The notes under the pieces are model-generated. The model did not search any database. It had not been told where the DNA came from and worked only from the letters and a program-made list of their open reading frames with translations. This document shows, one piece after another, positions 17,386 through 36,548 of a DNA stretch of 64,000 bases. The first letter of the stretch is position 1. Every line of letters begins with the position of its first letter. Made by a program: the position numbers and the translations under genes. Source of the stretch: Sphaerisporangium album (GTDB lineage: Bacteria > Actinomycetota > Actinomycetes > Streptosporangiales > Streptosporangiaceae); the NCBI RefSeq assembly GCF_003323745.1, contig NZ_QOIL01000005.1, positions 1 through 64,000 of the forward strand, given 5' to 3'.

Positions 17386-17417
17386 AGGTCCCGGCACGGG
17401 CGCCCGTGCCGGGACCT
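17386..17417. terminator. Perfect 32-bp palindrome, terminator of the chitinase gene
   Basis: The arms AGGTCCCGGCACGGGC and its exact complement meet with no unpaired bases between them, about 80 bases after the chitinase stop. As RNA it would fold into a long GC hairpin, with a short loop formed from the centre. It may act on either strand. Confidence 0.75.
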
Positions 17418-17529
17418 CACCGATGTTACCTACGGGTCAGTAATTTGTAATGGGAACTTGTAAATCAGGTCAAGCGGGCTGACATTCTGATCAACCGTTG
17501 CCACGGGGGATCAGCCCCAGGAGGCCCGC

Positions 17530-18378: not shown

Positions 18379-18391
18379 GGATCACCAGGCG

Positions 18392-19180: not shown

Positions 19181-19246
19181 CATCTCTCCGTTCTGCCTGT
19201 TCGCCGTCCGGCCGCGCCGTCCGCGACCGTCCCGACCGAGAACCCC

Positions 19247-19297
19247 CGCCCGCGTCGTACGGGCGAGGCGGGAACCGGAAGCCCGTACGGGCGGGCG
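19247..19297 (-). terminator. Hairpin after pxpC, attenuator or partial terminator
   Basis: Two stacked stems (CGCCCGC with GCGGGCG, and CGTACGGGC with GCCCGTACG) with a small internal loop and a 16-base loop lie 4 bases beyond the pxpC stop. The same-strand cyclase gene follows 67 bp later. Confidence 0.65.
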
Positions 19298-19300
19298 CCT

Positions 19301-20191
19301 CTAGTGCGGGCTCAGCCGGAACCGGACCCGCTGGCCGGGGCGGACCTGGGCCGCGCGGTCCACGTCCCGCGTGCGCACCACCGCGATCACCGGATAACCC
19401 CCGGTCACCGGATGGTCGGCCAGGAACAGCGTCGGCTGCCCCGACGGCGGCACCTGGAGCGCCCCCGGCACCATGCCCTCCGGCGGCAGCTCCCCGTCCC
19501 GCACGCGTTCCAGTACCGGCCCGCGCAGCCGGATGCCGACCCGGTTGCTGTCCGCCGTCACCTCGTACGGCTCCGCGCACAGCGCCCGCAGCGCGCCCGA
19601 GGTGAACCAGTCGTCGCGCGGCCCCGGCAGGACGGCGAGCAGGGGCACGTCGTCGCGCGGCTCGGCGACCGGCGCCAGGTCGACGCCGGGGAACCGCCCG
19701 GGCGGCGGGCCGACCGGCAACAGCGTGCCGGGCCTGGGCAGCTCCGGGCCGAGCCCCGCCATGAAGTCCGTGGCCCGCGACCCGAGGACCACGGGCACGT
19801 CCAGCCCGCCCCGGACCGCCACGTACGTACGCAGACCGCACCTCGGCACCCCCAGCCGCAGCGTCGCCCCGTCCGGCAGGCGCTCGACGGCGTGGTGGCC
19901 GATGTCGCGCGCCCGCCCCGACGCGTCGACCACCGTGGCCCTGCACGGCGCGCCGCTCAGCGCGATGAGCAGGTCGCCGTGGGCGCGGACGGCCAGGCCG
20001 CCCAGCGTCACCTCCAGGGCCGCCGCGCCCTCGGGGTTGGCCAGCAGCCGGTTGGCGAGCCGCAGGGAGCCCCGGTCGGCCGCGCCGGAGCGTCCCACGC
20101 CGAGATCGCCCCGCCCGGGACGCCCGAGGTCCTGCACGCTCGCCATCGGCCCGGTGGCGACCACCTCCAGCAGGCGGGCCGCCTCACCCAC
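19301..20191 (-). CDS. pxpC: 5-oxoprolinase subunit PxpC (biotin-dependent carboxyltransferase family)
   Basis: About 296 residues from a GTG at 20191. This start overlaps the pxpB stop by 8 bases and gives the family N-terminus (LLEVVATGPMASVQDLGRPGRGDLGVGRSGAAD). Further motifs are LEVTLGG, VAVRGGLDVPVVLGSRATD, EPYEVTADSNRVGIRLRGP and the C-terminal GQPTLFLADHPVTGGYPVIA. It forms the ATP-dependent 5-oxoprolinase with PxpA and PxpB, opening pyroglutamate to glutamate. Gene order and overlaps match the standard operon. Confidence 0.93.
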   Translation of the reverse strand: MGEAARLLEVVATGPMASVQDLGRPGRGDLGVGRSGAADRGSLRLANRLLANPEGAAALEVTLGGLAVRAHGDLLIALSGAPCRATVVDASGRARDIGHHAVERLPDGATLRLGVPRCGLRTYVAVRGGLDVPVVLGSRATDFMAGLGPELPRPGTLLPVGPPPGRFPGVDLAPVAEPRDDVPLLAVLPGPRDDWFTSGALRALCAEPYEVTADSNRVGIRLRGPVLERVRDGELPPEGMVPGALQVPPSGQPTLFLADHPVTGGYPVIAVVRTRDVDRAAQVRPGQRVRFRLSPH

Positions 20192-20804
20192 GACGGACCT
20201 CCACGAACCGGACGCGCGCGCCGGGCCGCAGCAGCGCGGGCGGGTCGGCGGCGACGTCCCACACCGGCAGGTCCGTGCGGCCGATGAGCCGCCATCCGCC
20301 GGGGGACTCGCGCGGGTACACCGCGCTGAACCCGGCCGCCAGCGCCACCGCCCCGGCCGGCACCCGCACACGCGACTCGGTCCTGCGGGGGACGCGCAGC
20401 CTGGGGTTGCCGCCGACGAGGTAGGCGAACCCGGGGGCGAAGCCGGAGAACGCCACCGTCCACGGCATGCCGGTGTGCGCCTCGACCACCTCGCGCTCGG
20501 ACAGCCCCGTCAGTACGGCGACGTCGGCGAGGTCGTCCCCGTCGTAGACCACGGGGACCGTCACCTCGCCCGCCGCCACGCGCGGCCCCGCGGCCGGGCG
20601 CGCGTTCAGGACCGCCGACTCGACCGCCCCCCAATGGGCAGGGGGCTCGAAGCGCACCAGCAGGGTGCGCGCGGCGGGGAGGAGGTCGGTGACCCCGCGC
20701 GGAGGGTCGGCCGCGAGCGTGTCGTACAGGGCGAGCACCTCCGCCGCGCCGCCCAGTTCGACCAGGACGGCCTGGTCGCCGCAGCGCCGGAACCGCGGGT
20801 TCAT
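20184..20804 (-). CDS. pxpB: 5-oxoprolinase subunit PxpB (KipI family)
   Basis: A 206-residue protein. The ATG at 20804 overlaps the pxpA stop (ATGA), implying translational coupling. KipI-family motifs are [14 protein letters not shown], the [14 protein letters not shown] segment, [39 protein letters not shown] and [15 protein letters not shown]. It is the second subunit of the PxpABC 5-oxoprolinase. A much longer in-frame extension to 21431 lies inside pxpA in another frame and is not real. Confidence 0.93.
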
Positions 20805-21589
20805 CCGTTCCTCACATGGCTTACGAAAGGAGCGACCCGGCACCCGGCCTCGGCGAGCGTCTCGCGGACCCTGCGTGCCATGGGCACCGGGTTCGGGCTG
20901 TCCCCGTGGACGCAGATCGACGCCGCCCGCACCCTCAACGGCGTGCCGTCCACGGCCTCCACCGGCTCGCCCTGGACCAGGCGCAGGCAGCGCCGCGCCA
21001 CCGCCTCCGGGTCGTGCAGCACCGCGCCGGGAAGGCCGCGCGGCACCAGCGTGCCTTCCGGGGTGTAGGCGCGGTCGGCGAAGAACTCGGCGATAGGGGT
21101 GAGCCCGGCGGCCTCGGCGATGCGCAGCCATGCCGAGCCGGGCAGGCCGAGGACCGGCAGACCCGGGTCGTAGGCCCGGACCGCCGCCACGACGGCGGCG
21201 GCCTGCACCTCGTGGTGGACGATCGCGTTGTAGAGCGCGCCGTGCGGCTTGACGTACCCCACCCGGCCGCCGGCCAGGCGCGCGAACGCGTCCAGGGCGC
21301 CGATCTGGTAGATGATCTCGTCGGCCAGGTCTTCTGGCGGCACCTCGATGAAGCGGCGCCCGAAGCCCGCCAGGTCGCGGTAGCCGACCTGCGCGCCGAT
21401 CTCGACCCCGCGCGCGACGGCCGTCTCGCACGTGCGCCGCATGATCGTCGGGTCTCCCGCGTGGAATCCGCAGGCGACGTTGGCGCTGGTGACGATGGCC
21501 AGCAGCGCCTCGTCGTCGCCGAGCTCCCAGCGGCCGAACCCCTCACCGAGGTCGGAGTTGAGGTCGATCGTTTCGATCAGGCGAGACAT
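20801..21589 (-). CDS. pxpA: 5-oxoprolinase subunit PxpA (LamB/YcsF family)
   Basis: A 262-residue protein with the LamB/YcsF signature: [53 protein letters not shown] and [10 protein letters not shown]. The conserved Asp and His residues line the putative active site that acts on the phosphorylated lactam. It is the first gene of pxpABC. The promoter region is shared with the divergent GntR gene, where a FadR-type operator sits, so repression by that regulator is likely. Confidence 0.94.
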
Positions 21590-21661
21590 GTCGTGCTCCG
21601 GGGTTCGCTGTTCTCATTCCAGTGTGGTCGTTCCGCGCGTGTGTGACACATTCAACATAAG

Positions 21662-21676
21662 GATCGTTCTACGATC
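21662..21676. promoter_or_regulatory. FadR-type GntR operator in the pxpA-gntR intergenic region
   Basis: GATCGTTCTACGATC is an inverted repeat with perfect 6-bp arms. Its core TCGTTCTACGA matches exactly the TNGTNNNACNA pattern known for FadR/FCD-subfamily GntR regulators. It lies between the divergent pxpA (start 21589) and the GntR gene (start about 21735), well placed to control both. Confidence 0.7.
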
Positions 21677-21734
21677 TGACAATAGCCTGGTGCTAAAATT
21701 CTTCCGTCCACGACAGGGAGAGGGCGGAACGGTC

Positions 21735-22424
21735 GTGATCGATAGCGCGGAGGCGGCGGCCGAACGGCTGGCCATGGATCGCGACCTGCTCGGGCGCACC
21801 AGCACGGCCGAACGCGTGGCGGCCATCCTGCGCGAGCGCATCACCGAGGGCGTCTTCGAGCCCGGCGCGCGGCTGTCGGAGGAGACGATCGGCACGGCCC
21901 TCGGCGTCTCCCGCAACACGCTGAGAGAGGCCTTCCGCCTGCTGTCCCACGAGCGGCTGCTCGTCCACCAGCTCAACCGCGGCGTGTTCGTCCGCCGCCT
22001 CACCGCCGAGGACGTCGTCGACCTGTACCGCGTCCGCAGGCTCGTCGAGTGCGCCGCGATCCGGGGCGCCGTCCCGCCCTCGCCGCAGGCGCTGGCCGCC
22101 CTGCGCGAGGCGCTCGCAGAGGCCGGGCGCGCGGCGGCGCAGGAGCGCTGGCACGACGTCGGCACCGGGAACATGCGCTTCCACCAGGCCGTCGTCGCGC
22201 TGGCGGGCAGCGAGCGGCTCGACGAGATGATGCGCCAGGTGCTCGCCGAGCTCCGGCTGACCTTCCTCGCGATGAAGAACCCGCGAGCCTTCCACGAGCC
22301 CTACATCGGGCGCAACCGCGAGATCCTCAAGCTGATCGAGGCCGGTGACGCCGGGGGAGCCGAGCGCCTGCTGGACGACTACCTCGCCGACGCCGAGGCG
22401 CAGCTCGTCCGCGCGCATTCCTGA
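21735..22424 (+). CDS. GntR-family regulator, FCD (FadR) subfamily
   Basis: About 229 residues from a GTG at 21735; the open frame extends upstream but only by antisense to pxpA. The N-terminal winged helix (about 25-95) has TSTAERVAAILRERITEGVFEPGARLSEETIGTALGVSRNTLREAFRLL. The C-terminal FCD domain (about 100-225) has conserved metal or ligand residues in NMRFHQAVV and a late EH-type RNREILKLIEAGD. It is divergent from pxpABC with a matching operator between them. It probably represses the 5-oxoprolinase operon; pyroglutamate or glutamate as effector is an inference. Confidence 0.88.
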   Translation: MIDSAEAAAERLAMDRDLLGRTSTAERVAAILRERITEGVFEPGARLSEETIGTALGVSRNTLREAFRLLSHERLLVHQLNRGVFVRRLTAEDVVDLYRVRRLVECAAIRGAVPPSPQALAALREALAEAGRAAAQERWHDVGTGNMRFHQAVVALAGSERLDEMMRQVLAELRLTFLAMKNPRAFHEPYIGRNREILKLIEAGDAGGAERLLDDYLADAEAQLVRAHS

Positions 22425-22458
22425 GCCGCCGGCGCGCCCGCGCGGGTAGGGGACCCTC

Positions 22459-22941
22459 ATGAGAGTGGTGGCGTTGTCGGACACCCACGCCCCGAGGCGG
22501 TGGAAGGCGTGCCCGCCCAGGGTGGCCGAGTACCTGCGCGGGGCCGACGTGATCCTGCACGCCGGGGACGTGTGCACGGCGTCGGTGCTGGACGAGCTGG
22601 CCGCCTACGCGCCCGTCCACGTCGTCAAGGGCAACAACGACGGCCCTGACATCCTCGCCCCCGAGACCCTGGAGCTGGACCTCGACGGGCTGCCGGTCGC
22701 GATGATCCACGACAGCGGCGCGGCGGCGGGCCGCTGGGCGCGCATGCGGCGGCGTTTCCCCGGCGCGCGGCTCGTCGTCTTCGGCCACTCGCACATTCCG
22801 CTCGACCACGAGGAGCAGGGCCTGCGCATCTTCAACCCCGGCTCGCCGACCGACCGCCGCCGCCAGCCGCACGGCACGATCGGCCTGCTCAGCGTCGAGC
22901 GCGGGCGCCTGCTGTCGGCCGAGATCGTGCCCGTGACCTGA
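22459..22941 (+). CDS. YfcE/MJ0936-type metallophosphoesterase
   Basis: A 160-residue calcineurin-like phosphoesterase. Metal-binding motifs are D8-x-H10 (LSDTH), HAGD near residue 37, KGNND, and FGHSH with the final His pair. The protein is short, as in YfcE/MJ0936 enzymes that hydrolyse phosphodiesters in vitro. The natural substrate is unknown. It begins 34 bp after the GntR gene on the same strand and may be co-transcribed, though no functional link is evident. Confidence 0.9.
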   Translation: MRVVALSDTHAPRRWKACPPRVAEYLRGADVILHAGDVCTASVLDELAAYAPVHVVKGNNDGPDILAPETLELDLDGLPVAMIHDSGAAAGRWARMRRRFPGARLVVFGHSHIPLDHEEQGLRIFNPGSPTDRRRQPHGTIGLLSVERGRLLSAEIVPVT

Positions 22942-23150
22942 GGGCGCGGCGTCGGCGGGGGTCCGTGGTCCGCGCGGTCCTTCCGGGCGGATGAAATCGG
23001 GGGTGTCAATTCGCGCATTCAGTCGCGTGGCGGCGCGGTCATTACCGCGGCGGGGTTGATTCCGAGTTACGCGCGGGTGTGCGCGGCGCGTTATTTCGGC
23101 GACGGGCGGCCGTCCGAGCCGGACGCCCAATAGGGGGCCCAAAAGAAAGA

Positions 23151-23176
23151 ACGGCCGGAGCCTCCGCTCCAGCCGT
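23151..23176 (-). terminator. Intrinsic terminator of the small exported-protein gene
   Basis: An 11-bp stem with one mismatch (ACGGCCGGAGC with GCTCCAGCCGT) and a CTCC loop is followed on the minus strand by TTCTTTCTTTT. This is a near-canonical intrinsic terminator, 26 bases past the stop of the 63-residue gene, and supports that gene being real. Confidence 0.8.
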
Positions 23177-23202
23177 CTCGTCCTGTCCGCCCGATCAGGC
23201 GA

Positions 23203-23394
23203 TCATCCCCAGGGGGTGTTGCCGTTCTGCGTCGGCGTGGGGGTGGGGGTCGCGGTGGTGCCGTCGGCGAGGTTCACGACCGCGGTGGGCTGGGCACTTG
23301 CGACGATGGCCGTCGTCGTGAGGGCGGCGCCGCCGGTGGCGATGGCCGCGAGAACGATGATCCGGGTGGCGGTGGTCTTGATGTGGTTCCTCAT
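23203..23394 (-). CDS. Small exported or membrane-anchored peptide, unknown function
   Basis: A 63-residue product. Residues about 4-35 form a positively charged start followed by a hydrophobic helix ending in AQP (TRIIVLAAIATGGAALTTTAIVASA), which reads as a signal peptide. The mature part is only about 28 residues, Thr/Pro-rich (TPTPTPTQNGNTPWG). GAGGGG lies 9 bases before the ATG and a good intrinsic terminator follows the stop, so it is probably a genuine monocistronic gene. I do not recognise the family; it could be a secreted signalling or surface peptide. Confidence 0.65.
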   Translation of the reverse strand: MRNHIKTTATRIIVLAAIATGGAALTTTAIVASAQPTAVVNLADGTTATPTPTPTQNGNTPWG

Positions 23395-23713
23395 CGGGCT
23401 GACCCCTCGTCTGTGGCCGGTGGCTCACGTCAGTGCCGTTTTCCTGCTCGCAATGACGAAGTTATTAGGGGTCGCTATCCAGGCTCTATCGGCATGCTTC
23501 TGCGGCGCCGGGGCCCATGGGGGTTCTTCGATAGCGGCATTCCGCGCAGTACGGATGGGATTATTGGGAAAAGGTGGGCTCCTGTGACTGCGGAGGCGGT
23601 CATTCGGGCGACCGGTGCGGCGTCCCGGGGACGGGTCGCGGCCGCGCGCGTCAGGCGAGGGGCGGCGCGACGATAGTGATCTTCGGGGGGCGGGGCCGCG
23701 GGGGCCGCCGGGA
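23395..23713. other. Intergenic region, no gene seen
   Basis: The 319 bases between two small minus-strand genes contain open frames in several phases but none with a ribosome site and family-like sequence. The left part must hold the promoter of the 63-residue gene; I cannot pick out a convincing core promoter. Confidence 0.4.
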
Positions 23714-23965
23714 TCAGAACCCGACGCCTCGGTCGGACTTGAAGGGGCCCAGCCACGCCAGGACGACGCTTCCGAAATTCACCAGAATGGTGTGCGGCGG
23801 CCGGTTCGCCGTCTCGCTGACCAGAAGCCTGACCACCGCCCCGTCCTGCATCCACGAGGCGAGGTCGTCCTCGCTGGGCTGGTCACCGTGCAGGCGGAGC
23901 ATCTGGTCGTGGGCCTGCCCGGTCATGCGGATGTGCAGTTCGCACGTGGGGTCGGTGTCCGCCAT
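23714..23965 (-). CDS. Small hypothetical protein (83 aa)
   Basis: The product starts MADTDPTCELHIRMTGQAHD and continues with an acidic helix and a hydrophobic strand (TILVNFGSVVLAWLG). No motif, signal peptide or membrane span is clear. The predicted mix of strands and helices suggests a small soluble domain. The ribosome site is weak (GGACGG). I do not recognise it. Codon use matches neighbouring genes, and no better frame covers the region, so I keep it as a probable gene. Confidence 0.5.
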   Translation of the reverse strand: MADTDPTCELHIRMTGQAHDQMLRLHGDQPSEDDLASWMQDGAVVRLLVSETANRPPHTILVNFGSVVLAWLGPFKSDRGVGF

Positions 23966-24075
23966 GGATGACCGTCCGGGTGATATCGACCGCGCTGGAA
24001 ATGACCGGCGTGGAACCCAGCGTACTCTCCGCCGAATCGGTACCCAAGCGACACCCCTATCGATGAACGGCGAAA

Positions 24076-24118
24076 GAGCTTAAAAGCTCCTGATCTATCC
24101 CTGTGACCCCTATAGGGG
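24076..24118 (+). promoter_or_regulatory. Two short palindromes upstream of the membrane-protein gene
   Basis: GAGCTT-AA-AAGCTC (24076-24089) and the perfect palindrome CCCCTATAGGGG (24107-24118) lie in an AT-richer stretch about 110-155 bp before the ATG at 24231. They could be operator sites or part of the leader. No regulator can be assigned. Confidence 0.4.
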
Positions 24119-24230
24119 GATATTTCCTTGACGATGCCCATCCTCGATCGCAAAGTCACAGGGGAACTGATCGCCCATCGGTATCCAGCCTCCCCGACTC
24201 CCCTGACCTTCGATCTTGTGAGGGTGCGTC

Positions 24231-25175
24231 ATGACGTTGACCGAAGCCGCCGACAGCCACCGTTCCCCCGATTCCCCCGCCGTCGCCGCCCGAAGCCGGG
24301 CCCGTCTCGTCCTCCTCAGCGTCCTCGCCGGCGCGGTCGCCGCCTCCCTGTGGTCCTTCCACTTCGTCGACAGCGTCATCGGCGACAACGTCGCCAACAC
24401 CCTGCTCGGCTACGACGCCAAGGGCACCGCCATCACCGGCGTCGTCGCCGGGGCGATCTTCGCGTTCGTGTCCGGGCTGGCCGGCACGTTCACCGCCTGC
24501 AACGTGGCCGCGTTCGGCGCGGTGATCCCGCTGGTCCGCGAGGGCGCGTCCTGGCGTGCCCGCCTGCGTGAGACGCTGCGCCCGCTCAGCCGCCTCGCCC
24601 TCGGCATGATCGTCGTCAGCGGGGTGTACGGCGCCGTCGGGGCGCTCCTCGGCGAACGCCTGCCGCAGCTCTCCCAGGCGACGGTCGGCGACGGCCTGCC
24701 CGTGCGGCTGCTCCAGGCGTCCGTGGTCTTCGGGCTGGTCGGGCTGGCCTTCATCTGGCTCGGCCTGGCCTCGCTGAAGATCGTGCCCGATCCACTGGCG
24801 GGGCTGGAGCGCCGCTACCCGAACGTGCGCCTGGTCGTGCTGGGCGCGCTGGTCGGCGGCTTCCTCATCGGCCGTCCGTTCCCGCTGTTCCACAAGTTGT
24901 TCGAGTACGCCGCCGAGATCCACAATCCCCTGTACGGGGCCGCGGTGTTCATCCTGCAGTCCCTCGGCAACATCGTCGTGATGGCGGTGCTCTTCGCCGT
25001 CCTCATGCTCGCCGCCCGCGGCCGCTTCCCCCGGTGGCTGGCGGCCAGTCCCGGACGCCTGGCGACGGTCGGGGCGGTCGCCTTCCTCGTCGCGGGCTCG
25101 TTCACCCTGATCTACTGGGACATCCGCCTGCCGTCGATGTTCGGCTACGGCTGGTATCCGGTCGTCCCCTGGTAG
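24231..25175 (+). CDS. Polytopic membrane protein, CcdA/DsbD-like architecture suspected
   Basis: A 314-residue protein with about seven predicted membrane helices. The segment AFVSGLAGTFTACNVAAFGAV near residue 82 recalls the G-x-x-S/T-x-C helix of CcdA/DsbD or related exporters, with a second glycine-rich, proline-containing helix later (LVGGFLIGRPFPLFHKLFEY). Only one Cys is in the first motif and no partner Cys is obvious in the second, so thiol-disulfide electron transfer is doubtful. The ATG has GAGGG 7 bases upstream. Its 3' end overlaps the convergent MEDS gene by 31 bp. Confidence 0.6.
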   Translation: MTLTEAADSHRSPDSPAVAARSRARLVLLSVLAGAVAASLWSFHFVDSVIGDNVANTLLGYDAKGTAITGVVAGAIFAFVSGLAGTFTACNVAAFGAVIPLVREGASWRARLRETLRPLSRLALGMIVVSGVYGAVGALLGERLPQLSQATVGDGLPVRLLQASVVFGLVGLAFIWLGLASLKIVPDPLAGLERRYPNVRLVVLGALVGGFLIGRPFPLFHKLFEYAAEIHNPLYGAAVFILQSLGNIVVMAVLFAVLMLAARGRFPRWLAASPGRLATVGAVAFLVAGSFTLIYWDIRLPSMFGYGWYPVVPW

Positions 25176-26128
25176 GTCCTCGCGAGATCGAAGTGCAGGC
25201 GCACGCTGGTGCCCGAAGGGCGATGGTGGATTCGCACCAGATCGGCCAGCTCGTTGACGATGACCAGGCCGCGGCCCCGCGTGGTGTGGTCCGGCGGGGG
25301 GATCCGCCCGGCGAGTGGGTCGGTGAGGAGCCCCGAGTCGTCCAGCTGGCACACCAGCGTGCCGTCTTCGAGCCAGACCGTCACCGTTCCGGGTCCGCAG
25401 GTGTACTCGGCGGTGTTGGTCGCCAGCTCGTTCATCGCGATGAGAAGATCGCCGACGCGGCGCTCGTCCAGCCCCGCGGCCGCGCCGCAGTCGGCGAGGA
25501 AGGCGCGCACGCCCGGGAGCCCGCCCGTGCCGTTGAAGGTGTGGGACGCGGCGTGCGGCGGGGGCGCGGGCAGCGGCTCGTCGAACAGGGCGGCGGTCTC
25601 CACGGGGTCGGTGTAGCCGGGGCTCGGCCACGTGCTCGCCGCGTCCTGGAGTATGGGGTGCGTGCGCTCGGCGTCGGCGAGCGCGTGCTCCTCCAGCGCC
25701 GTGACGTCGTAGGGGCAGAGGATGGTCGCCTCACGGCCGGCGAAGGCGGCGTTGATCAGGGCCTCGTGCGCGGCGCAGGCCGGGTACTCCAGCTCGGTGC
25801 GGCCCTTCCAGATCGGCTCCCCGATGATCCAGACGCGGCGCCCGGGGTGCGCGTGCGCGAAGGCCAGCAGCACCGACGGGATGATGCGGCCGGGGTTGCG
25901 GCCCGCGACCGCCATGTCCGCGAACACGACGCCGCCGGCGTCGTCGCCGAGCCGTGCGCGGATCGCCTCGCCGCCGCCGGGCACGGCCACCATGGCCGGG
26001 TCGCCGAGCGCCAGCGCCTCCCGCAGGAACGCCGCGCAGAGCGACGTGTGCTCGATCTCGTCGCGGTAGAACAGCCCTACGTGCCGGAACGGTTCCACGG
26101 ACGCCCGTTCCGGTGATGACCGCGTCAC
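25145..26128 (-). CDS. MEDS-domain / HATPase anti-sigma-type regulator
   Basis: A 327-residue cytoplasmic protein. The N-terminal MEDS-type domain (about 1-185) opens FRHVGLFYRDEIEH and contains VFADM, PGRIIPSVL, VWIIGEPIW and LCPYDVTAL. The C-terminal HATPase_c_2 domain (about 200-320) has MNELATNTAEY (N box), a DDSG G1-like loop and RGRGLVIVNELADLV. This pairing occurs in actinomycete sensor/anti-sigma regulators of stress responses. The start is GTG, overlapping the stop of an upstream 32-codon frame by GTGA. It is convergent with, and overlaps by 31 bp, the membrane-protein gene. Confidence 0.85.
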   Translation of the reverse strand: MTRSSPERASVEPFRHVGLFYRDEIEHTSLCAAFLREALALGDPAMVAVPGGGEAIRARLGDDAGGVVFADMAVAGRNPGRIIPSVLLAFAHAHPGRRVWIIGEPIWKGRTELEYPACAAHEALINAAFAGREATILCPYDVTALEEHALADAERTHPILQDAASTWPSPGYTDPVETAALFDEPLPAPPPHAASHTFNGTGGLPGVRAFLADCGAAAGLDERRVGDLLIAMNELATNTAEYTCGPGTVTVWLEDGTLVCQLDDSGLLTDPLAGRIPPPDHTTRGRGLVIVNELADLVRIHHRPSGTSVRLHFDLARTYQGTTGYQP

Positions 26129-28134: not shown

Positions 28135-28164
28135 TTGCCGATGCCGGGATCTCCCCCCTATGCT
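28135..28164 (+). promoter_or_regulatory. Leaderless promoter of the MetE-like gene
   Basis: TTGCCG (28135-28140) and TATGCT (28159-28164) are 18 bp apart, and the ATG at 28172 follows 7 bases after the -10. The upstream in-frame ATG at 28160 lies inside this -10 hexamer and so should not be the real start. Confidence 0.6.
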
Positions 28165-28171
28165 CCACCTC

Positions 28172-29236
28172 ATGGGAATCCCTACCGAACCGATCGGCAG
28201 TATCCCCCGACCCCCCGCCCTGCTCGCGGCCCTGTCCGACCACGCCGAGGGCAAGATCGGCGACGCCGAGCTCGTCGCCCGCCAGGACGAGGCGATCGCC
28301 GACACCATGGCCCGCCTGGAGCAGGCGGGCTCGCCGGTGCTCGTCGACGGAGAGCAGTCCAAACCGAGCTTCGTCACCTACCCCCTCGCGGGGCTCACCA
28401 CCCTGAGCCCCGACGGCGCCGTGATCCCGTTCGCCGACGGGCACACCCGCCAACTGCCGTGCCTGACGGCGGGCCCGTTCCGCTACCAGCGGCACGCCGT
28501 CACCTACCTGCGCGCCGCGCGGGGCCACACGACGCTGCCGGTCAAGCAGGCGATCATCGCCCCCTCGGCGCTGAGCCTGCTCTACCCGGCCGCCGGCGTG
28601 GACGGCTACTCGCGCAAGGCGTTCCTGGACGACCTGACCGCCGAGGCCGAGACCGAGATCCGCGAGTGCCTGGACGCGGGCGCGCACGCCGTCCAGCTCG
28701 ACTTCACCGAGGGACGGCTGTCGCTCAAGCTCGACCCCAGCGGGTCGGTGCTGGACGACTTCGTCGCCCTCAACAACCAGGTGCTGGAGCGCTTCACCGA
28801 CGCCGAGCGGGCGCGCATCGGCGTGCACACCTGCCCCGGCGGCGACCAGGACTCCACGCACAGCGCCGACGTCGACTACGCGGGCCTGCTGCCGAAGCTC
28901 TTCCAGCTCAAGGCGGGGAACTTCTACATCCAGCTCGCCGGGGAGCCCGACCCCGAGCGGGTGCTCGGCATCATCGCCGAGAACCTGCGCCCGGGCGTCA
29001 AGGTCTTCGTCGGTGTGGTCGACCCGATCGACCCCGCCGTCGAGACCCCCGAGCAGGTACGCGACCGCGTGCTCGCCGCCGCGCGCCACATCCCGCCCGA
29101 CCAGCTCGGCACCTGCGACGACTGCGGTTTCTCCCCCTTCGCCGACGACACCTCCACCTCCCGCGACACCGCCTTCGCCAAGATCGCGGCCCGCGTCCAG
29201 GGCACCCGCCTCGCCTCCGAGTCCCTGGGTCTCTGA
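28172..29236 (+). CDS. Single-domain MetE-like cobalamin-independent methyltransferase
   Basis: A 354-residue TIM-barrel protein of the UROD/MetE superfamily, less than half the length of classical MetE (about 750) because the N-terminal barrel is absent. The zinc ligands of the MetE catalytic domain appear conserved: H219 and C221 (VHTCPGG), E258 (AGEPDP) and C315/C318 (CDDCGFSP). It should transfer a methyl group to a thiol such as homocysteine. The donor is uncertain, since compact MetE proteins in archaea use methylcobamide or corrinoid proteins rather than methyl-folate. The start at 28172 is set by the leaderless promoter. A strong terminator follows. Confidence 0.85.
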   Translation: MGIPTEPIGSIPRPPALLAALSDHAEGKIGDAELVARQDEAIADTMARLEQAGSPVLVDGEQSKPSFVTYPLAGLTTLSPDGAVIPFADGHTRQLPCLTAGPFRYQRHAVTYLRAARGHTTLPVKQAIIAPSALSLLYPAAGVDGYSRKAFLDDLTAEAETEIRECLDAGAHAVQLDFTEGRLSLKLDPSGSVLDDFVALNNQVLERFTDAERARIGVHTCPGGDQDSTHSADVDYAGLLPKLFQLKAGNFYIQLAGEPDPERVLGIIAENLRPGVKVFVGVVDPIDPAVETPEQVRDRVLAAARHIPPDQLGTCDDCGFSPFADDTSTSRDTAFAKIAARVQGTRLASESLGL

Positions 29237-30674: not shown

Positions 30675-30722
30675 GGAAAGTCGGTCCGCGACGGCGCCTC
30701 TGAGCGGGAGGGGGTGGCGTAC

Positions 30723-31700
30723 ATGGAATTACGCCAACTCCGCTACTTCGTGACGCTGGCCGAGGAACTTCACTTCGGTCGTGCGGCGACCCGTGAGCAC
30801 ATCGTGCAGTCCGCGCTGAGTCAGCAGGTGCAACGGCTCGAACGGGAACTCGGGGTGCGGCTGCTGAACCGCAGTACCCACCACGTCGAGCTCACCCCCG
30901 CCGGTGCCGTCTTCCTGGTCGAGGTACGTCAGATCCTCGACCATGTGGGCCGGGCCGCGTCCGCCGCGCGCAACGCCGTCGCCTCCCCGCCCACCCTCCG
31001 GGTCGGCATCATCGACGCCGGTTACGATTCCATGCCGCAGATCCTGCGCGCGCTCCAGCGGCGCCATCCGGACCTCACGATTCACCAGGTCGAGGCCAGC
31101 ACACCCCAGCAGTACCGTCAGCTCGCCGACGGTCGCCTGGACATCGGAATCGGGCAGGCCTCCCAGACACCTCCCGAGGTGGCCTCCGAACTGGTCCGGC
31201 TCGATCCGCTGGGCGTCCTGGTCCCCGACGCTCACCGCTTCGCCGCCCTGGCCGGCGTGCCGGTCGCCTCGCTCGCCGACGAACCGCTCCTGCTCGGTGA
31301 GGAAGCCCAGACGCCGGAGTTCAACCAGTTCGTCATTGAGCTGTGCCGGTCGGCCGGATTCACGCCGACCATCTACGAGGGCACCGTCCAGAGCACCCGC
31401 GCCGCCGCCGACCTTGTGCTCCAGCAGCGCTGCGTGCTCTGTGTCCCCTCCTCTTCCCGCACCTCCAACCGGCCCGGCACCGTATGGCGACCCCTGATCG
31501 AACCGATCACCCACTACCCGTGGTCGCTGCTGTGGCGCTCGGGAGACCCGTCCGTCCACGTCGCCACCGTCATCGACAGCGCCAGGCAACTGGCCCGCCG
31601 GCTCGGCTGGCTGGACACCACCGTTCCGCCCGCGGGCGCGCCTTCCGGCCTGCCGGCGCCGACGGCCGTCGGCCGAGCTGAGAAGTCTCCCGGAGCTTGA
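30723..31700 (+). CDS. LysR-family transcriptional regulator
   Basis: About 325 residues from the ATG at 30723, 9 bases after GGAGGGGG. The N-terminal winged helix is typical: MELRQLRYFVTLAEELHFGRAATREHIVQSALSQQVQRLERELGVRLLNRS. The effector domain (about 90-295) has the two-lobed periplasmic-binding fold (LRVGIIDAGYDSMPQILRAL, DIGIGQASQ, FTPTIYEGTVQST). LysR proteins of this set often sense aromatic acids. The gene runs toward the tryptophan-dioxygenase operon and ends 53 bp from its 3' end. Control of that operon is possible, but it is not in the usual divergent arrangement. Confidence 0.92.
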   Translation: MELRQLRYFVTLAEELHFGRAATREHIVQSALSQQVQRLERELGVRLLNRSTHHVELTPAGAVFLVEVRQILDHVGRAASAARNAVASPPTLRVGIIDAGYDSMPQILRALQRRHPDLTIHQVEASTPQQYRQLADGRLDIGIGQASQTPPEVASELVRLDPLGVLVPDAHRFAALAGVPVASLADEPLLLGEEAQTPEFNQFVIELCRSAGFTPTIYEGTVQSTRAAADLVLQQRCVLCVPSSSRTSNRPGTVWRPLIEPITHYPWSLLWRSGDPSVHVATVIDSARQLARRLGWLDTTVPPAGAPSGLPAPTAVGRAEKSPGA

Positions 31701-31752: not shown

Positions 31753-32454
31753 TCAGCGCAGTGCCGAGCGCATCTCCCACAGTTCGGGGTAGAAGCGCTC
31801 GCCGAGGCGGGCGGTGAGGTGGGCGGCGCCGGTGCTGCCTGCGGTGCCGGGCCTGCGGCCGATCTGGCGTTCGACCGTCAGCGCGTGCCGGAAGCGGAAG
31901 GCCGACCATGCCTGGTCGTGTTCGACGAGGGCCTCGGCGAGGTCCCAGAGCGCCGCGTGATCGGCCCGGTTCCCGGCGATCTCCAGGTATGTGGCTAACC
32001 TGTCCTCTTTCGTGCCCACGGGGAAGCCCGCCTTGACCAGGACGGCGAGGAAACCGTCCCAGAGCGTCGGCTCGGACGCGCCGGGACGGGACGCGCCGGA
32101 CAGCAGCTCGATCTCGCGGAACTGCGCCGACTGCGCCCCGCTGGCCGAGCCGAGCGCGTCACGGAACCGCAGGAAGTCCGGCGGGGACATGGTGTCGAGG
32201 ACGTCGAACTGGTCGACCAGCATGCGCGCGATCACGTGGCACCGCCGCAGCCGCAGGCGGGGCAGGTAGCCGTCGCCGGCCATCATGTGGTCGCGGGCGT
32301 CGGCCAGTTCGGTCAGCATCTGCCGGAACCACAGCTCGCACGCCTGGTGCACCGTGATGAACAGCAGCTCGTCGTGCTCGACCGGGACGGACCTCGGGCG
32401 CCGCTGGCCGAGAAGGGCGGGCAGGCGCAGGTACTCGTCGTAGGTGAGTGACAT
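31753..32454 (-). CDS. Tryptophan 2,3-dioxygenase family protein
   Basis: A 233-residue heme dioxygenase, shorter than typical bacterial TDO (about 260-300). Key elements are kept: H36 in FITVHQACELWF (active-site His), the carboxylate-binding Arg in FLRFRDALGSASGAQSAQFR, H190 as proximal heme ligand in FRFRHALTVERQIG, and a GTAGSTG substrate loop. It should open the indole ring of tryptophan to N-formylkynurenine. It is last of five genes (formamidase, SDR, PLP enzyme, diiron oxygenase, TDO), 12 bp after the oxygenase stop. A relaxed substrate such as a modified tryptophan cannot be excluded. Confidence 0.9.
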   Translation of the reverse strand: MSLTYDEYLRLPALLGQRRPRSVPVEHDELLFITVHQACELWFRQMLTELADARDHMMAGDGYLPRLRLRRCHVIARMLVDQFDVLDTMSPPDFLRFRDALGSASGAQSAQFREIELLSGASRPGASEPTLWDGFLAVLVKAGFPVGTKEDRLATYLEIAGNRADHAALWDLAEALVEHDQAWSAFRFRHALTVERQIGRRPGTAGSTGAAHLTARLGERFYPELWEMRSALR

Positions 32455-32466
32455 GGTGCCGACCCT

Positions 32467-33441
32467 TCATGGGCGCTGTGACGATGGGCGCTGTGCCGGG
32501 TGCTGTGTCGTCGGCGGCTCTGACGGAAGGAGCCGGTACGCGGCGAACGCCTCGGCGGCTCCCGGAACGTCGAGCACCCCCGCGGACTGGAAGGTCCGCA
32601 CGGTGGCCTGGCAGGTGTCGGCGAGCTGCCCGGCCGCGGCCTCGCCCAGGTAACAGTCCGCGACGACCTGGTTCGCGGTGGCCGCGTCCAGGCCCGCCAG
32701 CAGGAGCGAGGCGCGCACCGGCTCGACGTCCCAGGTCAGGCACGCGTGGACGAGCGCGGGCAGCGTACGGGCCACCGGCGCGCGCAGGCCGGGGTCCAGC
32801 CCGGTCCACAGTTCGCCGAAGAAGCCCGAGAAGAAGCGGTGGTGGCGGCCCTCGTCCTTGGCGTGGTCGCGGGTCAGGTCGCGGACGACGCCGACCACCG
32901 ACGGGTCGTTCGGGATCTCGTTAAGCACGGCGGTGATGAGGGTCTCGAACACGACGGTCTGCAGCAACGGCACCAGCGCCGGCGCGTCCGGCAGCAACGC
33001 GCGTCCGGTCAGCTCCAGCCGGTACACGAAGCCGCCGTAGTCCCACGGCGGGATCGCGATGCCGGTGGCCTCCGCGATCTGGCCGGCCAGGTCGAGGCTG
33101 TAAAGGGCGTGGTAGCCCTCATCGCAGTACACCTTGAAGGCGTCCAGCCGCGCGGACACCGGCAGGTCCAGCCCGGCGCGGTTGTTGGCGATCAGCTCGG
33201 CGGCGGTGTTGACCACCCGCGTCTCCAGGTGCGTGGTGGACAGCAGGAACTGGTAGAGGTGCCGGACGGTGAGCTCGCGCCGCCGCTCGGGCGGCAGGCC
33301 GGCCAGCGCCTCGTGGTCCAGATACGGCACCAGGCGCTCGGGATAGAAGACCTTGCCGGCCGCCGTCTCCTGCGCGAACATGCGACGGGCCCCGGTCCGG
33401 ACGCCCGCCGTCTCGTACCACTGGCCGAAGGGGCTTCTCAC
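32467..33441 (-). CDS. AurF-type diiron arylamine N-oxygenase
   Basis: A 324-residue protein (AurF is about 336). All seven diiron ligands of AurF have counterparts at nearly the same spacing: E73, E108 and H111 (DEGYH), E166 (VFETL), H193, E197 and H200 (HAKDEGRH). E73 to E108 is 35 residues, as between AurF E101 and E136, and H193-x3-E197-x2-H200 matches exactly. Such enzymes oxidise an aromatic amine to hydroxylamine, nitroso or nitro. The GTG start overlaps the stop of the PLP-enzyme gene (GTGA), with GGGAGAG upstream. In this operon the likely substrate is the aniline nitrogen of kynurenine or a derivative (inference). Confidence 0.85.
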   Translation of the reverse strand: MRSPFGQWYETAGVRTGARRMFAQETAAGKVFYPERLVPYLDHEALAGLPPERRRELTVRHLYQFLLSTTHLETRVVNTAAELIANNRAGLDLPVSARLDAFKVYCDEGYHALYSLDLAGQIAEATGIAIPPWDYGGFVYRLELTGRALLPDAPALVPLLQTVVFETLITAVLNEIPNDPSVVGVVRDLTRDHAKDEGRHHRFFSGFFGELWTGLDPGLRAPVARTLPALVHACLTWDVEPVRASLLLAGLDAATANQVVADCYLGEAAAGQLADTCQATVRTFQSAGVLDVPGAAEAFAAYRLLPSEPPTTQHPAQRPSSQRP

Positions 33442-34673
33442 GTCGTCTCTCCCATCACGCGTGCGAGCCGGACGACGCCCGCGGCGACCGTGCCGGCGTC
33501 CGTGGCGTGGCAGAGCCGGAACCAGCCCGGCCGAGGGCAGCCGAACACCGCGCCGGGCAGGACGTTCACCCGCGCGGAGTGGAAGATCCGCCGCCAGAGC
33601 TCGTGCTCGCCCTCGGGGGTCGGGTCGGGCAGGCGCCCGCTCAGGTCGATCCAGATCGAGAAGCCGCCGTCCGCCTCGACGTGCGGGATGCCGCCGTCCG
33701 CCAGCAGCGCCGCGGCGGACGCGTACGAGCGGCCGAGCCGGCGCCGCGACTCGTAGAGGAAGTCCCGCACCCAGAGCGCGTCGTCGAGCAGCCGCGTCAG
33801 CGTGGCCTGGGTCTGGGTCGAGACGGGCGCGAAGTACGCCAGCGCACGGGCGGCGGCGCGCACGTCCGGGTCGCGCGTGTGCAGCACGCCCACCTTGAGG
33901 CCCGGCAGGCCGAAGTCCTTGGCGAAGCCCCAGATGCCGTGCACACGGTGGGCATGGTCGCCGGAGACGGCGGGGTCGAGCATGCTGACGAACGGGTCCG
34001 CGCCGAACACCGAGTGGGCGTAGATCTCGTCGGCGATCACGTCCACGTCGTGCTCCCGCGCCACCCGCAGCACCTCCCGCAGCACAGGCCCGGGGTGGAC
34101 GTGCCCGACCGGGTTGGACGGCGAGGTGATCGCCAGGGCGCGCACCGCCACGCCGTCGCCGCGTGCCCTTTTCAGCACGCGGCCGACGACCTCCGGGTCC
34201 AGGGCGTACCCGGTGGTCTCGTCCATCGGGGCGGGGATCAGCCGGGCGCCGGAGCGGCCGGCGAGGTCGGTGTCGAACGCCGCGTAGTACGGCGCGGGCA
34301 CCACGATGGCCTCGCCCGGGTCGCACAGCGCGGTGGCGAGGACGTCCAGCGCGGCGGTCGCGCCGCTCACCACCACGAGGTCGTCCGGGTCGATCGCGGT
34401 GTTCCAGCGGGGCCCGAGCAGCGCGGCGACCGCGGCCCGCAGTTCGGGGGTGCCGTGCAGCGGCCCGTACTGGCAGTCGGACGCGCGCGGCGGGCCGGCG
34501 TGCGCGAGGCGGGGGGCCAGCAGGTCCCATACGAGCCGGTTGTCCGCGGTGCCGAGGTTGACGTGGCCGCCGGGGTTGTCCGTGGCGTGGTACGGATCGG
34601 CCTCAGCCTCGAAGTGCGCCGCCGCGATGGCCGGGACGTCGGCGACGAGCCGCCGGGCGGTCCGCGACAGCAT
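33438..34673 (-). CDS. ACC-synthase-like fold-type I PLP enzyme
   Basis: A 411-residue class I/II aminotransferase-fold protein. Motifs are closer to ACC synthases than to aspartate aminotransferases: VVPAPYYAAFDTDL, ITSPSNPVGHVH, ADEIYAHSVFG, the PLP-binding Lys in GFAKDFGLPGLKVG and a carboxylate Arg in GWFRLCHA. It may transaminate kynurenine or a related amino acid, or carry out a beta/gamma elimination or cyclisation as ACC-synthase relatives do. The ATG overlaps the SDR stop by one base (TGATG) and its own stop overlaps the oxygenase start. The gene set implies dedicated biosynthesis. Confidence 0.85.
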   Translation of the reverse strand: MLSRTARRLVADVPAIAAAHFEAEADPYHATDNPGGHVNLGTADNRLVWDLLAPRLAHAGPPRASDCQYGPLHGTPELRAAVAALLGPRWNTAIDPDDLVVVSGATAALDVLATALCDPGEAIVVPAPYYAAFDTDLAGRSGARLIPAPMDETTGYALDPEVVGRVLKRARGDGVAVRALAITSPSNPVGHVHPGPVLREVLRVAREHDVDVIADEIYAHSVFGADPFVSMLDPAVSGDHAHRVHGIWGFAKDFGLPGLKVGVLHTRDPDVRAAARALAYFAPVSTQTQATLTRLLDDALWVRDFLYESRRRLGRSYASAAALLADGGIPHVEADGGFSIWIDLSGRLPDPTPEGEHELWRRIFHSARVNVLPGAVFGCPRPGWFRLCHATDAGTVAAGVVRLARVMGETT

Positions 34674-35575
34674 CAGCGCACGCCTTCCGGCCGCGATCCC
34701 ACGGGCGCGGCGGCCGGCCCGGAGTCGCCGCGCCTCGCCGAGTCCGTGGCCGGCCAGTCCTCGCCCACGATCTCGGTAAAGGTCGGCGGCATGCCGGTCA
34801 GCAGGCCCGGGTGCACCCCGAGGCCCATGGACGCGTCGATCACCGCTCCATGCAGCGGCACCGCGTGGTCGCCGGTCAGCCACCACACGACCTCGGCGAT
34901 CTCCTCGGGCTGCAGCAGCCGCCCCCGGGGCAGGCGCGACTCCAGCGCCGCCCGCTCGCCGGCCGACAGCCCGGACAGCGTGCTCGCCTCCAGCATGGCC
35001 GTCTCCACCGCGCCCGGGCTGACCGCGAAGACCTCGACCGGCCGGTGCGCCAGCTCGGCGGCCAGTTGCCGGGTGAGGTAGGCCAGCGCGGCCTTGCTCA
35101 TGCCGTCGGCGATGTGGAAGCCGGGGAACACGGCGATGCCGCCGCCGACGCTGGCGACGTTCACCACCTTGCCGTAGCCGCGTTCGAGCATGCCCGGCAG
35201 CAGCCGCTGGATCAGCCACAGCGGGCCGACGCTGTTGATGCGCAGGAACGCGGCCACCCGCTCGTGGTCGGCGCCCGGGACGTAGTCCTCCACCGTCTTG
35301 GACCCGACGGCCGCGTTGTTGACCAGGACGTCCACGGGGCCGGGCAGCGCGTCCAGAAGTTGTTCGTGGCTGGCCCAGTCGCCCTGGTCGAACTCGAACG
35401 CCCCGGACTGCGCGCCCGTGTCGGCCAGTTCGGCCACCAGGGCCTCTGCCCTGGACCTGCCGGAGCGATAGGTGAACCACACCCGGTCGCCCCCGGCGGC
35501 GAACCGCCGTACGCACGCCCGTCCGATCCCGGCCGAACCGCCGGTCACCAGCACCGTCCGCGATCTCGCCGGCAC
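34673..35575 (-). CDS. Short-chain dehydrogenase/reductase with atypical active site
   Basis: A 300-residue SDR. The cofactor motif is TGGSAGIG (11-18), NNAA lies at about 87-90 and a Ser at 142. The catalytic Y-x3-K motif reads D157-G-M-S-K161, so Tyr is replaced by Asp while Lys is kept. The codon is GAC, more than one change from a Tyr codon only if TAC is excluded; GAC and TAC differ by one base, so a recent mutation is possible. The N-terminal F.YRSG segment suggests NADP(H). Activity may be altered. The GTG start has AGGAGG 7 bases upstream. Second gene of the operon. Confidence 0.85.
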   Translation of the reverse strand: MPARSRTVLVTGGSAGIGRACVRRFAAGGDRVWFTYRSGRSRAEALVAELADTGAQSGAFEFDQGDWASHEQLLDALPGPVDVLVNNAAVGSKTVEDYVPGADHERVAAFLRINSVGPLWLIQRLLPGMLERGYGKVVNVASVGGGIAVFPGFHIADGMSKAALAYLTRQLAAELAHRPVEVFAVSPGAVETAMLEASTLSGLSAGERAALESRLPRGRLLQPEEIAEVVWWLTGDHAVPLHGAVIDASMGLGVHPGLLTGMPPTFTEIVGEDWPATDSARRGDSGPAAAPVGSRPEGVR

Positions 35576-35696
35576 CGCACGCCTCCTGTCCGCCGGTCGG
35601 CCCCGGCCGCCTGTCCGTGCCTGTCGTACGCCGGGCCGCGCGCCGGGGTCGTACTCGGCGTGAAATGTCGTGTGATGCGCCAGGTCGTACGCCGGG

Positions 35697-36548
35697 TCAT
35701 ACGCCGAGCAGGGCCAGCACCTCCCGGCCCAGCGGGTCCGCCGGGTCGCCGATTCCCATCGGCAGATCGAAGTGGTGACGGCCGGGCAGCACCATCTCGG
35801 TGACGTCCAGCCCGTTCGCGCGCGCCACCGCCACCAGGCGGTCCTGCTGGTCGGCGAACCCGATCGGCTCGCCGGCGCCCCGCACGGCCAGCACCGGCGG
35901 CATGCCGGGACGCAGCGTCCGTACCGGGCTGTTGCGCTCCGCCTCCTCGGCGGTGAGCCGGATCGCGGGGCCGATCGAGGTGTGCAGCAGGGGCTCCAGC
36001 TCGTAGAGGCCGCTGAGCAGCACGGCGGCGCTCACCGGCTCGGAGTCCAGGCACATCGCGACGAGCTGCGCGCCGGCCGAGTGCCCGGCGAGGACGATGC
36101 GCCGCTCGTCCACGCCGAGGTCCGCGGCGTTGCGGCGCAGCCACCGGACTCCGCGCCGGGCCATGTCCACGATCTCGTCCAGCCGGTACCGGGGGGCCAG
36201 GCCGTACCCGAGGGCGGCGTACGCGGCCCCGCGCGCGACCAGGCCCGGCGCGGGGAACGCGGAATCGGCCTCGCTCAGCTCCTGCCAATATCCGCCGTGC
36301 ACGAAGACCAGCAGGGGGGCTCCGGGCGACTTCGCGGGGAAGAATTGGATCCGTTCCGCCTCGGCGGGCCCGTACGCCAGATCGCGCCACGGCGACATAC
36401 GGCGCGCCTCCTCGGAAAGGTAGGCGTATTCCTTGAGGAATGGGTCCGGGGAAACGCTCAGGCCCGGCAGATATGCCTCGTCCCAGCGGTGCCGGTCGGC
36501 GCCCCAGCCGCGGTCCGGCAGGGGCCGGGTGTCCGCTCTCGCGATCAC
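35697..36548 (-). CDS. Kynurenine formamidase-like alpha/beta hydrolase
   Basis: A 283-residue alpha/beta hydrolase. The oxyanion motif HGGYWQ (84-89) is characteristic of arylformamidases (kynurenine formamidases). The nucleophile elbow is GHSAGA (S157), and a late HHFDLP supplies the catalytic His. With TDO in the same operon it would hydrolyse N-formylkynurenine to kynurenine. The GTG start has GGAG about 9 bases upstream. It is the promoter-proximal gene; a 121-bp gap with several CGTACGCCGG-like stretches separates it from the SDR gene. Confidence 0.85.
   Translation of the reverse strand: MIARADTRPLPDRGWGADRHRWDEAYLPGLSVSPDPFLKEYAYLSEEARRMSPWRDLAYGPAEAERIQFFPAKSPGAPLLVFVHGGYWQELSEADSAFPAPGLVARGAAYAALGYGLAPRYRLDEIVDMARRGVRWLRRNAADLGVDERRIVLAGHSAGAQLVAMCLDSEPVSAAVLLSGLYELEPLLHTSIGPAIRLTAEEAERNSPVRTLRPGMPPVLAVRGAGEPIGFADQQDRLVAVARANGLDVTEMVLPGRHHFDLPMGIGDPADPLGREVLALLGV

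Follow-up and report, generated by a model that had tools for sequence, protein, structure and literature searches.

A compact set of genes on the minus strand of the Sphaerisporangium album genome looks like a kynurenine-derived biosynthetic cassette, apparently undescribed, whose core occurs in many actinobacteria. It lies in a window comprising bases 1 to 64,000 of contig C45 of this 9.3-Mb actinobacterial genome. Its core encodes a short-chain dehydrogenase/reductase (SDR)-like protein, a pyridoxal phosphate (PLP) enzyme resembling 1-aminocyclopropane-1-carboxylate (ACC) synthase, an AurF-type diiron oxygenase, and a tryptophan 2,3-dioxygenase (TDO). The gene set, its conservation, and the active-site residues described below are direct observations. 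All of the enzyme families are known; what is new is their combination, the ACC-synthase-like partner, and an SDR with aspartate in place of its catalytic tyrosine.

Gene layout in the S. album window

Reading of the open reading frames (ORFs) in the window places five genes, all on the minus strand, between positions 31753 and 36548:

31753 to 32454, minus strand: TDO, a short tryptophan 2,3-dioxygenase of 233 amino acids (PF03301; match to the Xanthomonas campestris TDO; conserved residues)
32467 to 33441, minus strand: AurF-type ferritin-like diiron oxygenase of 324 amino acids with a GTG start (PF11583; seven ligands)
33438 to 34673, minus strand: ACC-synthase-like fold-type-I PLP enzyme of 411 amino acids (PF00155; ACC synthase similarity)
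34673 to 35575, minus strand: SDR-like protein of 300 amino acids, with N-S-D-K replacing N-S-Y-K (PF13561)
35697 to 36548, minus strand: HYD, a kynurenine-formamidase-like alpha/beta hydrolase of 283 amino acids and an optional partner (HGGYWQ, GHSAG, Abhydrolase_3/BD-FAE)

This is the gene set named in the original prediction, and the coordinates and Pfam families agree with it, HYD being recognized as a generic alpha/beta hydrolase only. Pfam scores were 140 bits for TDO (PF03301; cutoff, 34.9), 72 bits for AurF (PF11583; cutoff, 29.6), 202 bits for the PLP enzyme (PF00155), and 134 bits for the SDR (PF13561). The tight packing that had been claimed resolves into a 1-bp overlap between SDR and PLP, a 4-bp overlap between the stop of PLP and the GTG start of AurF, and a 12-bp gap between AurF and TDO; the gap between HYD and SDR is larger, at 121 bp.

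The four-gene core recurs across actinobacteria

The SDR-PLP-AurF-TDO core is a real unit. A search of genomes for the co-occurring set, which the original prediction had suggested, found the four genes together in 27 loci from several actinobacterial families, mostly with tiny gaps or overlaps, and with a formamidase-like hydrolase adjacent in at least 15 of the 27. Chance co-location of the core is thereby ruled out. Most of these loci came from a scan in which three aligned AurF orthologues were searched against one genome per species (84,980 species); the scan relied on two exact peptide patterns, and its yield of 41 loci is a lower bound. A cassette-type AurF (58 to 76% identity) was present in 25 of the 41 (L016 to L040). 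All four core genes were found in 21 of these 25; contig ends truncate the remaining four (L016, L019, L027, and L032), which were excluded. The 21 scan loci, the window, and two loci from its genus make 24 four-gene loci, which G060, G762, and G775 raise to 27; L121 (in G069) is the same locus as L017 (AurF 100% identical) and was counted once. The two genus loci, both of which include HYD, come from a search of 10 other genomes of the genus. Hosts of the full cassette include Streptomyces, Kitasatospora, Amycolatopsis, Kutzneria, Actinophytocola, Frankia, Protofrankia, Catellatospora, Actinoplanes, and Allonocardiopsis.

Among the 24 loci the gene order is SDR-PLP-AurF-TDO, except for L029 and L034, where it is AurF-TDO-SDR-PLP. 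Pairwise correlations between the distance matrices of the four proteins ranged from 0.37 to 0.70 (rho), and none of 999 permutations gave values as high.

Profile searches gave a similar picture; those for SDR and PLP used a threshold of E ≤ 1e-60, at which weaker relatives go unseen. The PLP profile matched 5 genomes in a sample of 297 from the window's family, and in 5/5 the gene lay within a complete cassette. The SDR profile matched seven genomes in this set, namely, the same five plus G275 and G292, and AurF at E < 1e-100 also matched seven: the five cassette genomes, a fragmented assembly (G030), and a genome that has AurF without the cassette (G193). At 1e-20, AurF matches rose to 16/297, and TDO was near-universal (279/297 at E ≤ 1e-30). 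At the level of the class, the SDR profile matched 3 of 197 genomes, all three with complete cassettes; in the genus of G275 it matched 3 of 65 genomes, none of them in a cassette. When the PLP profile was run on 396 genomes from the phylum, it recovered the window protein and three weaker homologs with 35 to 39% identity.

TDO and the formamidase-like hydrolase

The window TDO matches the X. campestris enzyme at 128.9 bits, with a shorter stretch in its middle region. In that enzyme's numbering, the equivalents of the heme- and tryptophan-binding residues Y24, Y27, F51, H55, R117, H240, and T254 are all present, H240 being the heme ligand and H55 the distal His. Across cassette TDOs, Y24, Y27, F51, and R117 are kept in 26/26 and H55 in 25/26 (Gln in L017), while H240 is kept in all 25 sequences with letters at that position, and T254 is Thr in 22 and Ser in 3. 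On a TDO tree the cassette label requires 3 changes, compared with 18.4 for shuffled labels; the placement of the outliers L029/L034 and L040 is uncertain owing to long branches. A cassette-specific change at Y113 and W102 was considered and dropped, as 26 non-cassette actinobacterial TDOs differ there too.

HYD carries the motifs HGGYWQ and GHSAG, corresponding to HGGxW and the nucleophile motif GxSxG. Its Pfam matches are to broad alpha/beta hydrolase families (Abhydrolase_3, 52 bits; BD-FAE, 51 bits), and against solved chains it matches a lipase-named chain at 97.6 bits and the kynurenine formamidase 4e11 at 56.5 bits. Lipase- and esterase-named chains and profiles outscore formamidase, and HYD is a putative kynurenine formamidase.

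A hydrolase of the HYD type adjoins 12 of the 27 full cassettes. A second type, with the motif HGGFW, clusters apart from HYD and adjoins three more (L039, L040, and L122, the last assigned by eye); in L033 it lies about 6 kb from the cassette. Two hydrolase types beside the same core fit a need for deformylation. HYD was also considered as an obligatory member of the cassette, which was ruled out by the 12/27 full cassettes in whose flanks, only partly profiled, no adjacent hydrolase was recognized.

An SDR subfamily with aspartate at the tyrosine site

Asp replaces the catalytic Tyr of the SDR motif YxxxK in every one of the 25 cassette SDRs of the initial alignment and, with eight more loci added, in 33/33 distinct relatives. 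The Asn, the Asn of NNA, the Ser, and the Lys are kept in the same 33 sequences, and the cofactor motif TGxxxGxG reads TGGSxGiG in the consensus.

Five relatives lie outside the AurF cassette, and no AurF match was found within 17 to 21 kb around any of them. In G275, the SDR is divergent from a TDO and is itself followed by HYD. In G710, TDO (Trp_dioxygenase, 82 bits) and SDR form, in that order, a single ORF of 539 residues with a pyridoxal-dependent decarboxylase behind it; this natural fusion lies at positions 7238 to 8857 of L136 (G710:C656:41000-58000). The SDR of G292 comes after a short stretch that we read by eye as a TDO C terminus, and the same kind of decarboxylase follows. On the Streptomyces clavuligerus plasmid pCLA1, the SDR precedes a decarboxylase of the G710 family, and on a Shinella plasmid it stands immediately before a kynureninase (279.6 bits; NCBIfam cutoff, 246.4). 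TDO or its remnant is therefore present in 3/5 contexts, kynureninase in 1/5, and an adjacent PLP enzyme of varying kind in 4/5. From the fusion and the TDO/HYD and kynureninase neighbors, we infer that the SDR, the most telling member of the cassette, would act on ring-opened tryptophan, i.e., on N-formylkynurenine or kynurenine itself.

The Shinella locus (L129; Shinella sp. PSBB067 plasmid, 8733 to 25497) also holds an operon of its own interest, in which kynureninase and the Asp-type SDR are accompanied by a branched-chain-type ABC transporter, a thiamine pyrophosphate enzyme, and hydantoinase-like genes. It may serve the uptake and degradation of a kynurenine-like compound.

An ACC-synthase-like PLP enzyme

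The original label of the PLP enzyme as ACC-synthase-like is correct: ACC synthase is the top match in sequence (248 bits, compared with 45 bits for kynurenine aminotransferase I), and structure comparison likewise ranks ACC synthases first, although the VIA-align and Foldseek lists say nothing about families not listed in them. The PLP lysine is kept in 26/26 sequences, and the position of ACC-synthase E47 holds Glu in 24 of them and Asp in the other 2, the window protein being one of these two. PYYP of ACC synthase is changed. The best NCBIfam profile is that of GntC, a gamma-hydroxyarginine cyclodehydratase (138 bits). For GntC, OrfR, and VioD, an N-terminal Glu and a Ser-Ser motif are reported (PMC10367076). 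The cassette enzyme resembles plant ACC synthases far more closely than it does kynurenine aminotransferases, which points to a reaction at the gamma carbon, the ketone position of kynurenine.

The three weaker homologs noted above come from one distant actinobacterial genus (G458, G543, and G554; loci L132, L131, and L130). No TDO, AurF, or HYD match was found in the 16 to 19 kb fetched around them, which held one generic SDR match with 28% identity; the ACC-synthase-like family is thus wider than the cassette.

The AurF-type diiron oxygenase

The oxygenase aligns to the AurF structure 3chh at 27.4 bits with all seven ligands in register (E72, E107, H110, E165, H192, E196, and H199 in a 323-residue reading), and the seven are conserved in a consensus of 28 loci, in keeping with the original description of a diiron protein with a full ligand set. 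It does not reach the 620-bit cutoff of NF045603 (4-aminobenzoate N-oxygenase AurF), scoring 28.4 bits.

AurF relatives also occur alone. In 16 of the 41 scan loci (L041 to L056), no SDR, PLP, or TDO match was found beside AurF; a member of the window's genus, G007, has an AurF with 39% identity without cassette partners beside it, and two plasmid matches (L011 and L012) likewise lacked cassette partners save for one generic SDR match (30%). Three AurF-only loci were profiled, each in part. Pfam identifies a PALP enzyme together with a carbamoyltransferase in both L044 and L047, and in L044 an ornithine cyclodeaminase and a methyltransferase as well; L041 instead has a LysE exporter and another AurF. 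By eye, L048 and L051 to L053 resemble L044 in part, and L044 and L048 share a tRNA-synthetase-like protein, which has no Pfam or NCBIfam match in L044. Judged partly by layout and by eye, the Streptomyces loci L042 to L044, L047, L048, and L051 to L053 carry differing selections of genes for PALP, ornithine cyclodeaminase, aspartate/ornithine carbamoyltransferase, and methyltransferase, and may represent a separate pathway to an N-oxygenated amino acid. Such a set of PALP, ornithine cyclodeaminase, and carbamoyltransferase genes recalls diaminopropionate pathways.

Genome context and flanking genes

As originally stated, neither nonribosomal peptide synthetase (NRPS) nor polyketide synthase (PKS) genes are nearby: no NRPS condensation or PKS ketosynthase match was found in the 64-kb window, the nearest condensation domain being at C45:90882 and the sole ketosynthase match on C45 at 284112. 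The absence of kynureninase from the cluster also holds, and the sole match in the genome above the cutoff is on contig C7; a weak kynureninase-like protein at about C45:142765-143976 scores 23.5 bits to KYNU_C, below the cutoff. Two more TDOs are encoded in the genome, on contig C11 (with H55 changed to Thr) and at C45:141989; a third, dedicated copy is in keeping with a pathway of special purpose.

The surroundings of these two TDOs are of separate interest. The C11 homolog (115311 to 116084; L074), whose distal His55 is Thr, lies near a luciferase-like monooxygenase and a BD-FAE-type hydrolase. The second, in L075 (C45, about 134900 to 148000), is accompanied by an AMP-binding enzyme, a hydrolase, and the weak kynureninase-like protein, with an NRPS condensation domain nearby.

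Two plus-strand genes lie next to the cassette in the window:

28160 to 29236, plus strand: cobalamin-independent methionine-synthase (MetE)-like protein, catalytic domain only, a possible accessory (PF01717)
30714 to 31700, plus strand: LysR-type regulator, convergent, probably outside the cassette (PF00126/PF03466)

The MetE-like gene is directly beside TDO in the two genus relatives with the cassette and 2.5 kb away in the window; no MetE-like match at ≥50% identity was found in the stretches L016 to L056. A short methionine-synthase-like protein with 71% identity to it (L128, 465 to 1526) is encoded on the S. clavuligerus plasmid about 8.5 kb from the Asp-type SDR, perhaps by coincidence. 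The LysR gene is a weak candidate for a cassette regulator, with no homolog at E ≤ 1e-5 in the two genus loci.

In flanks called with our own codon-position scripts rather than an annotation pipeline, clustering of flanking genes revealed no further neighbor family, apart from the hydrolases, that is conserved beside the cassette across genera. Flank families present in at least three loci were confined to related sets (the window genus; Amycolatopsis L023/L024/L038; Streptomyces L025 to L027/L030/L031 and L032/L035 to L037). A larger conserved cluster was therefore dropped, the shared families being read as ordinary synteny of related genomes.

A proposed pathway and its alternatives

In the scheme that we favor, TDO would open L-tryptophan to N-formylkynurenine, and HYD, or a formamidase encoded elsewhere in the genome, would free L-kynurenine; these steps, and the link of the SDR to kynurenine, are strongly suggested by the gene associations above. 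The SDR-like protein would act on the ring-opened amino acid, most likely through a redox change of the gamma-carbon aryl ketone, and the PLP enzyme might work at that carbon too, catalyzing an elimination or a ring closure and not a transamination. The AurF-type enzyme would convert an amine nitrogen, the ortho-aniline one being the likeliest, to a hydroxylamine, nitroso, or nitro function. What is released, free rather than carried by an NRPS, would be a kynurenine-type amino acid bearing this N-oxygenation, or a heterocycle made from it. Putative assignments in this scheme are the SDR and PLP reactions, the nitrogen that is oxygenated, the sequence of the final three steps, and the product. 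We put the probability that the cassette is self-contained and makes a small tryptophan-derived metabolite by this full scheme at roughly 0.58. A bolder version would add a new branch of tryptophan metabolism in which the Tyr-less SDR (N-S-D-K) and ACC-synthase-like gamma-carbon chemistry act on kynurenine, the diiron enzyme forms an N-O bond, and the ring recloses through the N-oxygenated nitrogen. A small tryptophan-like heterocyclic amino acid (e.g., of the anthranil, quinoline N-oxide, or N-hydroxyindolinone type) would result, possibly a tryptophan antimetabolite, and the SDR would be the first member of a kynurenine-dedicated SDR subfamily with non-tyrosine catalysis. This extension is tentative, and we consider it unlikely.

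Several observations weigh against the favored scheme. One is the set of cassettes, noted above, with no recognized hydrolase beside them. TDO scores 175.1 bits, well under the 390.7-bit cutoff of the NCBIfam equivalog TIGR03036, and its position 126 is Phe in 2/26 cassette sequences compared with 23/26 non-cassette sequences, the latter being the best-scoring TDOs of the family from a profile search rather than a random draw. Given this difference in the pocket and the shortfall in score, the substrate could be a modified tryptophan. Nor do cassette TDOs form one clean clade. Among the non-cassette SDR contexts, G275 has no PLP enzyme directly adjacent (a DegT-type one is 4 kb away), and no TDO was seen in the stretches fetched from S. 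clavuligerus and Shinella. Because its catalytic Tyr is lost, the SDR is not to be assumed an ordinary ketone reductase, and it may not reduce a ketone at all. In the window's PLP enzyme, the region of ACC-synthase Y85, a residue that contacts S-adenosylmethionine (SAM), has PLHG in place of DYHG (26 relatives give the consensus plhG), and the GntC score falls far below the cutoff of 415 bits; neither the ACC synthase nor the GntC reaction can be assumed. Finally, the neighborhoods of sister AurF proteins suggest that an aliphatic amine may be the substrate.

The original prediction took a different route from kynurenine, with early oxidation of the aniline by AurF leading to an anthranil (2,1-benzisoxazole), or transamination by the PLP enzyme leading to an N-hydroxy-4-quinolone; on this route the SDR would be a side tailoring enzyme. 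The intact AurF ligands, the supply of the needed amine by TDO and the hydrolase, and the general compatibility of an ACC-synthase-like fold with transaminase activity all speak for it. However, ACC synthases, not kynurenine aminotransferases, are the closer relatives of the PLP enzyme, and the SDR, which stands beside TDO, hydrolase, or kynureninase without AurF in the stretches fetched, need not be a late tailoring enzyme. We consider this route unlikely. The overall frame of the prediction has support in part. Oxidation of the aniline nitrogen of kynurenine, its central step, is plausible but unproven, given that some of the nearest AurF relatives sit in the diaminopropionate-like clusters. 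Alternatively, AurF might leave the aniline untouched and oxidize the aliphatic alpha-amine, in which case an oxime or a nitro or N-hydroxy amino acid would form. Apart from those clusters (L044 and L047, with L048 and L051 to L053 by eye), the breadth of the family favors this idea: AurF and CmlI oxidize arylamines, and ObiL and PvfB are placed in PF11583 as well (PMC10724926). Yet the substrate of the sister proteins is itself deduced from neighbors, L041 has a second AurF and an exporter instead, and an arylamine of the sort used by AurF and CmlI is at hand in kynurenine. PvfB and HamC reportedly act outside arylamines, and AzoC and HamC are further PF11583-type diiron oxygenases. On balance, alpha-amine oxidation is a distinctly unlikely alternative.

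Two further readings are improbable. The operon might serve catabolism or detoxification of tryptophan or kynurenine, an idea suggested by Shinella, where the SDR relative shares an operon of the uptake and degradation type with kynureninase. However, no gene for transport or breakdown accompanies the cassette constantly across genera, an N-oxygenase would be unusual in tryptophan catabolism, and kynureninase is encoded separately, elsewhere in the genome. Even less probable is a true SAM-using ACC-synthase-type PLP enzyme that supplies the kynurenine part with a C4 unit while the product of the nearby methionine-synthase-like gene recycles sulfur. ACC synthase is the best match in fold and sequence, and a MetE-like gene is near the cassette in all three loci of the genus that carry it, but the Y85 region and PYYP are changed, and the L016 to L056 stretches lack the MetE-like match.

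Novelty and relation to known systems

A literature search whose coverage mostly excluded subscription journals and bioRxiv found no description of such a cluster and none that pairs AurF with kynurenine; within that coverage, it agrees with the earlier statement that no described pathway has this gene set. If the scheme is true, the cassette is a widespread and apparently undescribed outlet of kynurenine metabolism in actinobacteria, built from four or five genes without NRPS or PKS, a size at which expression of the whole pathway and discovery of its product are easy to try. In addition, the AurF family would gain a substrate derived from tryptophan, the ACC-synthase fold of bacteria a new reaction, and the SDRs a subfamily, with Asp for Tyr, that is tied to tryptophan opening and includes a natural TDO-SDR fusion.

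Each enzyme has a known counterpart from which it departs. The heme ligands, tryptophan-binding residues, and HGGxW hydrolase partner recall X. campestris TDO (2nw7) and kynurenine formamidase, but the cassette TDO lacks part of the middle region and its position 126 is usually small; unlike the kynurenine pathway, the cassette has no kynureninase as a constant neighbor. The PLP enzyme shares with plant ACC synthases (1iax and 3piu) the top sequence and structure match, the PLP lysine, and the E47 equivalent (E/D), yet it is bacterial, its Y85 region and the preceding loop are changed, and SAM use is not expected. GntC of the guanitoxin pathway is its best NCBIfam profile, with gamma-carbon chemistry as a proposed analogy, but at only 138 of 415 bits. 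The oxygenase resembles AurF and other PF11583 enzymes in family match and seven ligands, whereas it scores only 27 bits to AurF itself and sits with a TDO. PrnD of pyrrolnitrin biosynthesis is a Rieske enzyme and not of the AurF type. The pyrrolnitrin pathway is alike in concept only: PrnB, a heme enzyme of the TDO/indoleamine 2,3-dioxygenase superfamily, acts on a tryptophan, and PrnD is an arylamine N-oxygenase (PMC11791213; PMC10724926). The two systems thus share a heme enzyme of that superfamily and an arylamine N-oxygenase, but the substrate of PrnB and PrnD is chlorinated and the ring chemistry is different.

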